Positions 62,639 to 63,830 of a stretch of DNA of 64,000 bases are shown here, piece after piece. Positions within the stretch are counted from its first letter, which is position 1. Each line of letters begins with the position of its first letter. The notes under the pieces were generated by a model. It saw only the letters and a list, made by a program, of their open reading frames with translations. It searched no databases and was not told where the DNA came from. The stretch is from contig JADZCU010000004.1 in NCBI GenBank assembly GCA_020851415.1, forward strand, positions 62,001-126,000, written 5' to 3'. Source of the DNA: Candidatus Peregrinibacteria bacterium (GTDB taxonomy: Bacteria > Patescibacteriota > Gracilibacteria > UBA1369). Both the position numbers and the translations under genes were made by a program.

Positions 62639-63079
62639 ATGGATTTTTTTTATTGGCTGACAAATCAGTTTAGCGAGGCAGGGACTTTGGAATATGTGAA
62701 TTGGTATGGTGCTTTAAAGAAGCCGTTTTTTGCACCTCCAACTTGGCTTTTTGGGGTGGCGTGGGGGATTATTTATCCGATGATTATTATCGCCTTTGTT
62801 TGGGCGTGCGTGCTTTTGAAGAAGAAAAAAGTGGATGCTGTTTTTGTGTGGGTGTTTGTGGCGAACATTGTTTCGAACCTTTTATTTACTGCTGTTTCGT
62901 TGGCATTTAAAAATAACTGGTTGAGTTTACTTAATATTTTGGTGGTTCTGGGTACTTTGATTTGGATTGAACTTTACGCATGGAAAAAGGCAAAACCTGT
63001 GTTTTGGTTACTGGTTCCGTATACTCTTTGGGGAAGTTTTGCTACGGTTTTGCAGCTGGCCATTACGTTGATGAATTAA
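62639..63079 (+). CDS. TspO/MBR family membrane protein
   Basis: The 146-residue protein has about five transmembrane segments and the family features: WYGALKKPFFAPPTWLFGVA in the first third, NNWLSLLN in the middle and LVPYTLWGSFATVLQLAITL near the end. TspO proteins bind porphyrins and are linked to stress or tetrapyrrole handling. The Trp-rich substrate pocket is partly kept. It ends 21 bases before the DUF1801 gene. Confidence 0.85.
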   Translation: MDFFYWLTNQFSEAGTLEYVNWYGALKKPFFAPPTWLFGVAWGIIYPMIIIAFVWACVLLKKKKVDAVFVWVFVANIVSNLLFTAVSLAFKNNWLSLLNILVVLGTLIWIELYAWKKAKPVFWLLVPYTLWGSFATVLQLAITLMN

Positions 63080-63100: not shown

Positions 63101-63475
63101 ATGCCTGAACCCAAAAAATCTTATGGAACGATTGATGAATATATCAAAACTTTTCCAAAGGATGTTCAGACTATTTTGGTAAAAATACGGAAGGTGATTG
63201 GAAAAGCGGCGCCCGATGCTGTTGAGGGGATAAGTTATGGATTGCCAGCATTTACATTGAACGGGAAACCTTTGGTTTATTTTGGTGCGTGGAAAAAGCA
63301 CATAGGTTTTTATGCTACACCAGCGGGCAATGTGGCTTTTAAGAAAGAGCTGTCTGTGTACCAAGGGGCAAAAGGGTCTGTGCAGTTTCCTTTGGATGAG
63401 CCAATGCCTTATGATTTGATTGAAAAGATTGCGAAGTTCCGGGTGAGGGAAGTGGGGGCGAAGAAGAAAAAATAG
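63101..63475 (+). CDS. DUF1801 (YdhG-like) protein
   Basis: The 124-residue protein shows the DUF1801 pattern: YGTIDEYIKTFPKDVQTILV, RKVIGKAAPDAVEGISYGLP, then FYATPAGNVAFKKEL and GSVQFPLDEPMPYDLIEKIA. Its C-terminus is basic (Lys-rich). Members have a frataxin-like fold and are mostly of unknown function. It probably shares the transcript of the TspO gene. The hairpin at 63483-63509 lies just after the stop but is better suited to the opposite strand. Confidence 0.85.
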   Translation: MPEPKKSYGTIDEYIKTFPKDVQTILVKIRKVIGKAAPDAVEGISYGLPAFTLNGKPLVYFGAWKKHIGFYATPAGNVAFKKELSVYQGAKGSVQFPLDEPMPYDLIEKIAKFRVREVGAKKKK

Positions 63476-63482
63476 ATTTTAC

Positions 63483-63509
63483 AAAAAAGAAGCTCTGCTT
63501 AAGCAGAGC
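63483..63509 (-). terminator. Terminator of the tRNA-like RNA
   Basis: GCTCTGC (63492-63498) pairs with GCAGAGC (63503-63509) around TTAA; on the minus strand the stem is followed by TTC and a T6 run. It lies 14 bases past the encoded CCA end of the tRNA-like RNA. Confidence 0.75.
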
Positions 63510-63522
63510 CTCTTACCCATGA

Positions 63523-63593
63523 TGGTGGAGCTACGGGGACTCGAACCCCGGCTGATAGATTCTCGAAACCATCAACGGAACCTTCCTAACCCC
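63523..63593 (-). ncRNA. tRNA-like RNA with alanine-type G3-U70 acceptor stem
   Basis: On the minus strand, GGGGUUA pairs with UAGCUCC (including a G3-U70 wobble), then ACCA ends the molecule (CCA at 63523-63525). The T arm is perfect: CGGGG, loop UUCGAGU, CCCCG. The rest is unusual. The D-arm region is a mini-hairpin GGA/UCC, and the anticodon-like arm is UGAUGG / CUAUCA with a ten-base loop UUUCGAGAAU. Total length is 71. A CGA anticodon (Ser) could be read only with a bulge. A tmRNA is less likely because no tag reading frame is inserted. Confidence 0.55.
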
Positions 63594-63672
63594 ACCACAT
63601 TGGTGACGTGAAATTATCATTTGTGGTTAAAATTTTTTTAATGAGAAACATATTTTTTTGGATTGAGTGAAT

Positions 63673-63701
63673 TTGATAGCTTATGAAAGTGGGGGTATAA
63701 T
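63673..63701 (+). promoter_or_regulatory. Strong promoter of the small RNA
   Basis: TTGATA (63673-63678), 17 bases, then a perfect TATAAT (63696-63701). The predicted start is near 63708, and no convincing gene lies downstream on this strand. Confidence 0.8.
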
Positions 63702-63707
63702 GTGTAT

Positions 63708-63830
63708 GGTTCTCGAAGCCATTAGCGAATCTCAGGTCTTGTTAACCAACGATGGTGGAGCTAAAAATGGTAATTGCTAACAACCTGAGATTACAGAAAG
63801 AGAGCCCCGGCGTGGGCTCTCTTTCTTTTT
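63708..63830 (+). ncRNA. Small RNA complementary to the tRNA-like RNA
   Basis: It runs from a consensus promoter to a strong terminator (about 120 bases). Its 5' end (63708-63727) can form 20 consecutive pairs, four of them G-U, with the anticodon-like arm of the tRNA-like RNA. Bases 63751-63763 (GATGGTGGAGCTA) are perfectly complementary to that RNA's 3' end including CCA. This second site sits in the apical loop of a long stem (63728-63744 / 63778-63792). A 50-codon frame from 63752 exists but runs through the terminator and is not convincing. Confidence 0.55.
63797..63830 (+). terminator. Terminator of the small RNA
   Basis: AAAGAGAGCCC (63797-63807) pairs with GGGCTCTCTTT (63814-63824) around CGGCGT, followed by CTTTTT. 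The symmetric stem could also stop grpE transcription from the other side, although its T-run there is poor. Confidence 0.85.

Follow-up and report, generated by a model that had tools for sequence, protein, structure and literature searches.

A putative antisense guard RNA and its alanine-type tRNA mimic, predicted members of a family of matched RNA pairs in Patescibacteria

Two adjacent, divergently encoded small RNAs are predicted in the 64,000-nucleotide stretch of a Candidatus Peregrinibacteria genome analysed here (the window). One is a tRNA-like RNA (TLR) and the other, encoded at 63708-63830, appears to be a constitutive antisense guard which neutralises it. When free, this alanine-acceptor tRNA mimic would act as a brake on translation during competence. 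The probability of this reading is placed at about one half. The evidence lies in the pairing of the two RNAs, the co-evolution and orthogonality of such pairs, the promoter-set start of the antisense segment, the acceptor identity of the mimic and, in other genomes, the sharing of a promoter box with competence genes, all of which were read from sequence. By the same evidence, the guard RNA and the TLR belong to a family of matched RNA pairs distributed across Patescibacteria.

The guard RNA and its contacts with the TLR

The guard RNA is predicted to start 7 nt past the TATAAT of its promoter (TTGATA at 63673-63678 and TATAAT at 63696-63701, with a spacer of 17 nt) and to end in a 13-bp hairpin followed by a U run. 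Both the promoter and the strong terminator proposed for this RNA in a preliminary description were recovered (Table 1). The fold of 63708-63830, which includes a long stem, has an energy of -45.6 kcal/mol (z -4.75 against shuffled sequences). Past its stem the RNA holds the terminator at 63795-63826 and no gene of the kind that stands downstream of a T-box. The guard RNA and the TLR are predicted to form two adjacent divergent transcription units. Their genome is of Peregrinibacteria type, and its DnaK has its closest named relatives in Candidatus Peregrinibacteria. Next to the pair, at 62639-63079 and 63101-63475, lie genes for a protein of the TspO/MBR family and for a DUF1801 protein.

Table 1. 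Predicted features of the guard RNA and TLR locus (window positions; WC, Watson-Crick pairs).
Feature	Positions	Strand	Basis
Antisense guard RNA (anti-TLR), ~120 nt	63708-63830	+	Promoter, fold z -4.75, complementarity to TLR
Sigma-70 promoter of guard RNA, TTGATA-N17-TATAAT	63673-63701	+	11/12 matches
Terminator hairpin of guard RNA	63795-63826	+	MFE fold
5' segment complementary to the TLR anticodon-like arm (TLR nt 17-36)	63708-63727	+	16 WC + 4 G-U, unbroken
Second segment complementary to the TLR acceptor strand, CCA and 2 trailer nt	63751-63763	+	13 WC
TLR, 71 nt, G3:U70, A73, encoded CCA, no mRNA domain	63523-63593	-	RF00023 34.6 bits; model R1 82.5 bits (this TLR is one of the 9 sequences used to build R1); family covariation
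TLR anticodon-like arm and loop, complementary to guard RNA	63558-63577	-	20-nt pairing
TLR promoter region, TTAA-N7-TTAAC-N6-TGATAAT (two half sites 11 bp apart, -10)	63613-63641	-	9/12 matches
TLR terminator, 12-bp stem + T run	63487-63514	-	

An unbroken pairing of the first 20 bases of the guard RNA with the anticodon-like arm, and a perfect pairing of a second segment with the CCA end, had been claimed earlier; both duplexes are present (Table 1). The duplex energy of the 5' 23 nt of the guard with its own TLR was -32.4 kcal/mol, against -24.5 kcal/mol at best and a median of -14.9 kcal/mol with 96 other TLRs. Energies calculated for the whole sRNA did not discriminate between TLRs, probably because GC-rich stems dominate them, and the comparison was therefore limited to the 5' 23 nt. 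Only 5 of 97 pairs (the window, L123, L124, L130 and L347) showed strong pairing at the CCA end, so that the conserved core of the interaction is the anticodon-like arm. The D arm is contacted by some other partner RNAs. Selection appears to act on the pairing of the two gene products, and the contact that it conserves is the anticodon-like arm.

Matched pairs in related genomes

Relatives were searched with the tmRNA model and with covariance models built for this purpose (R1 and R2), and 106 TLR loci remained once ordinary tRNAs had been recognised by inspection and discarded. A partner was scored where an antisense copy of the arm lay at most 300 nt away and gave a run of at least 10 WC pairs. 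Such a partner was found at 97 of the 106 loci, in 44 genomes from many families of Patescibacteria; homologous pairs thus exist in related genomes. The partners were placed in tandem (50 of the 97), convergently (39), divergently (7) or in tandem upstream (1). This mixed placement argues that RNA-RNA pairing, and not gene order, is kept. In all orientations the complementarity is to the TLR RNA and not to the TLR promoter, and in many convergent loci a bidirectional terminator is common to both units.

Just 5' of the complement, 87% of the 70 partners with sufficient upstream sequence had a -10 box matching at 5 or more of its 6 bases, against 8% at random positions, and the spacing between box and complement peaked at 5-7 nt. 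Since the complement begins just past the -10 box, the partner RNA is predicted to start with the antisense segment.

The longest WC run was mostly 13-17 in true pairs and mostly 6-9 when TLRs were swapped between loci. TLRs are multi-copy, with up to about 8 per genome. For paralogs within a genome, own pairs gave 14.4 WC on average and cross pairs 5.9; by their complementarity, the paralogous pairs of one genome are orthogonal. In each of two small (0.6 Mb) genomes, G402 and G343, the model matched 7-8 times, for the most part at TLR/antisense pairs in tandem (L318, L320, L323, L325, L327-L331, L334, L341 and L354), and additional TLR-like copies there (L361, L366 and L367) are preceded by the same promoter box.

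Compensation between the pairing regions, proposed as a test in the preliminary description, was also observed. The 21 comparisons made between related loci gave 101 TLR substitutions in the paired region, of which 56 were compensated in the partner, 19 were kept as G-U and 26 were unpaired; these counts are not independent because some comparisons share loci. Part of this pattern could stem from gene conversion between the two short copies, which would mimic compensation. None of four ordinary tRNA-Ala genes taken as controls had a promoter-linked antisense partner, two of them matching other nearby tRNA sequence only.

Identity and promoter of the TLR

The TLR is better described as an alanine-type tRNA mimic with a putative tRNA-like domain of the tmRNA type. 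The window TLR matched the tmRNA model RF00023 over the tRNA-like domain only (34.6 bits, E 2.9e-12); TLRs of relatives scored 24.6-44.1 bits, and the gathering cut-off of 47 bits was not reached by any of them. Rfam at gathering thresholds gave no match. ARAGORN did not call the window TLR as a tRNA, and elsewhere called a few variants and left out most. The message domain of tmRNA (tag ORF and pseudoknots) is absent from the TLR, the halves of the tRNA-like domain being separated by about 25 nt.

An alignment of 66 TLRs fitted to model R1 supported the cloverleaf, with 94.7% of cells paired. There were 500 double-changed cells, where shuffling gave 141 +/- 12, and double changes were present in 23 of the 24 pairs. 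The same picture was obtained from a smaller MAFFT alignment made without use of structure (18 of 24 pairs). The acceptor was GGG..UCC-A in 98 of the 106 TLRs, while adjacent acceptor pairs vary freely, and pair 3:70 was G-U in 62 of the 66 aligned TLRs, as in the alanine identity of tmRNA. In the loop, U33 is usual, A38 is nearly always present and position 37 is mostly C; the arm is 8-9 bp long and the variable loop is missing in nearly all. The aligned TLRs therefore depart from canonical tRNAs in the variable loop, the 8-9 linker, the 5-bp anticodon stem and the purine at 37. The encoded CCA is missing in about one quarter of them. We infer from these features an acceptor domain of chargeable appearance joined to an anticodon arm of unusual form, and conservation of the alanine acceptor points to the TLR as the active member of the pair.

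Four of the 106 TLRs have a glycine-like acceptor (G1:C72, C2:G71, U73). This GCC..GGC/U73 acceptor, found at L194, L233 (G206), L197 and L322 (G254), resembles glycine and not alanine identity. The leader and trailer of the TLR are often inverted repeats of locus-specific sequence (e.g. L125, L127, L131 and L144). In the TLR precursor they would pair into a stem beyond the acceptor and mask the CCA.

In genomes G036 and G025, a box of 11-bp direct repeats, TTTA-N7-TTTAAGAAAATTTWA, occurs 23 and 29 times respectively, against 0 for the reversed control. TLRs, recA, ssb, dprA, comF, comM and a gene for a ComEC-like metallo-beta-lactamase lie 3' of these boxes (the names comF, comM and ComEC are a reading of domain content), as do many small genes of the toxin-antitoxin type (HicA, Phd/YefM) and genes for KilA-N/ORF-N proteins and LTD proteins. 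In these two genomes (loci L240-L272 and L278-L293), a competence regulon of Peregrinibacteria stands out sharply. A Pho-type box was the first guess for the 11-bp repeats; it was rejected because the co-regulation of recA, ssb, dprA, comF and comM indicates competence rather than Pho.

In G023 and G029, TLR promoters and dprA have common boxes quite different from that of G036/G025; local scores were 15-45, and shuffled sequences peaked near 14. In G002 a common TLR-dprA box gave a weaker signal. In the distant G402 and G343, the TLR box also stands 5' of a comF-like gene and of the gene for ribosomal protein S6. Reversed-pattern controls in G036/G025 and G402/G343 were without TLR boxes. The box thus differs by lineage, yet the TLR and competence genes have it in common. 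In the window genome, comparison of the TLR and dprA promoters gave no common box (p 0.65), and the TLR box was not enriched at other genes above control level. On this evidence, which comes from genomes other than that of the window, the TLR promoter would belong to a natural-competence regulon in several lineages.

Proposed role, alternatives and known systems

With a dedicated, separately promoted tRNA mimic as its target, the 63708 RNA has the look of an antisense guard. The guard would be transcribed constitutively from its near-consensus promoter, and its 5' end would anneal, from nucleotide 1, to the U-turn loop and the 5' side of the anticodon-like arm. At the window locus it would also cover the acceptor/CCA end, so that maturation, charging and use of the TLR would be blocked. 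The TLR, predicted to keep the elbow, the T arm and the G3:U70 acceptor with a minimal D arm, an anticodon-like arm of 8-9 bp and no variable loop, would be made from a separate promoter activated in particular conditions. Once its synthesis exceeded that of the guard, TLR left free, and presumably alanylated, would act on the machinery of translation and most likely slow it during competence. In this scheme we infer that the RNAs are transcribed, which of them controls the other, that the TLR is alanylated and how it affects translation. Antisense-controlled modules show orthogonality, and loops that are hypervariable yet matched. It is nearly as likely as not that aminoacylatable tRNA mimics, each with its own orthogonal guard, constitute a competence-coupled RNA toxin/antidote or translation-control system, phylum-wide and of an undescribed kind.

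The main alternatives to the guard account give the TLR a sponge role or make it a non-ribosomal alanine donor. In the former, it is the antisense RNA that acts, as an sRNA regulating mRNAs, and the TLR serves as a decoy or sponge that titrates it upon induction of the competence genes. The position of the pairing region at the sRNA 5' end, the usual seed position, and the regulated-looking promoter of the TLR agree with this. However, the seeds are completely different among paralogs of one genome and among related genomes, and are therefore a poor fit to conserved mRNA targets; moreover, a decoy has no need of G3:U70, elbow and CCA, all of which are kept. A sponge role is therefore unlikely. 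A TLR that donates alanine in a non-ribosomal reaction (e.g. to a tRNA-dependent peptidyl/aminoacyl transferase), with the antisense RNA limiting its supply or keeping it off the ribosome, would account for acceptor and elbow identity being kept while the anticodon is not. This is rather improbable, as no transferase gene was seen among the box-bearing genes, and the regulon seen consists of DNA uptake, recombination and small toxin-antitoxin-type genes.

The preliminary description had favoured a stand-alone tRNA-sensing or tRNA-sequestering RNA, with two contacts in T-box order and no gene following. That order and the lack of a gene hold for the window, and sequestration fits the data; T-box kinship and sensing are not supported. 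The second contact is found in 5 of 97 pairs, no T-box covariance model matched and no gene lies downstream. The target is tRNA-like, as its RF00023 score indicates, but it is a dedicated mimic with its own promoter and not a tRNA to be sensed. A T-box-like sensor is accordingly very unlikely. In a split tmRNA, the message domain would come from the 63708 RNA and the tRNA-like one from the TLR. The best TLR score is to the tmRNA model, and no full-length tmRNA was found in the window genome (95% complete), through an assembly gap or a real loss. The split tmRNA was rejected as highly improbable because an ordinary tmRNA of about 410 nt coexists with the TLR in most TLR-bearing relatives; partner RNAs elsewhere are short and have only the antisense segment and a terminator in common. 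A DNA-level repeat with no RNA function, such as an att site or the scar of a tRNA-gene duplication, would explain two short copies near a tRNA-like gene and is scarcely credible: the copies occur in both orientations and on both sides, the complement starts just past a -10 box, and the tRNA-Ala controls show nothing comparable.

Antisense control of RNA is a known principle. We know of no described family in which a chargeable-looking tRNA mimic has a dedicated co-evolving antisense RNA, and no description of a patescibacterial family of tRNA-like RNA/antisense pairs was found in the open-access literature. The distribution of the family is known from genomes of Patescibacteria, the phylum searched. 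TLR/guard pairs occur throughout this huge, poorly understood phylum and are tied to DNA-uptake genes in several lineages. If the guard account is true, they would add a new layer of RNA control on translation or aminoacyl-tRNA use. The system is testable, given that natural competence and genetic tractability are combined in Saccharibacteria, members of this phylum (PMC10633639), which would be candidate hosts if they carry TLRs.

The TLR resembles the tRNA-like domain of tmRNA (RF00023) and tRNA-Ala in its GGGG..CUCC-A-CCA acceptor with G3:U70, its T arm, the GG of its D loop and the abutment of the T arm on a long helix. Unlike tmRNA, it is 71 nt long, has no message domain or pseudoknots and scores below the cut-off; it also differs in its anticodon-like hairpin, the loop of which is variable, and in most genomes it stands beside a normal tmRNA. 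With the T-box riboswitch the window locus shares contact at the anticodon arm and then at the acceptor end, but model match and regulated gene are absent and the second contact is not conserved.

Type VIII toxin-antitoxin systems are RNA-RNA systems, e.g. SdsR-RyeA. At the level of sequence, the TLR/guard pairs are like them in that both partners are RNA and one is under an antisense RNA, but the controlled RNA here, the putative toxin, is a tRNA mimic. The pseudo-tRNA tRNAOther is likewise a tRNA-like RNA outside translation; the parts of its description considered here place it in Bacillus cereus only and mention no antisense partner, in contrast to the TLR (PMC3399842). In CreTA, the CreT RNA toxin sequesters a rare tRNA and is silenced by a second RNA, CreA, which acts via CRISPR Cascade on the promoter (PMC8501985). 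The TLR/guard pair would similarly place a small RNA at the tRNA level under the control of another RNA, but CreT is a mini-ORF (PMC8501985), whereas the TLR is a predicted tRNA mimic and its guard is complementary to the RNA itself.
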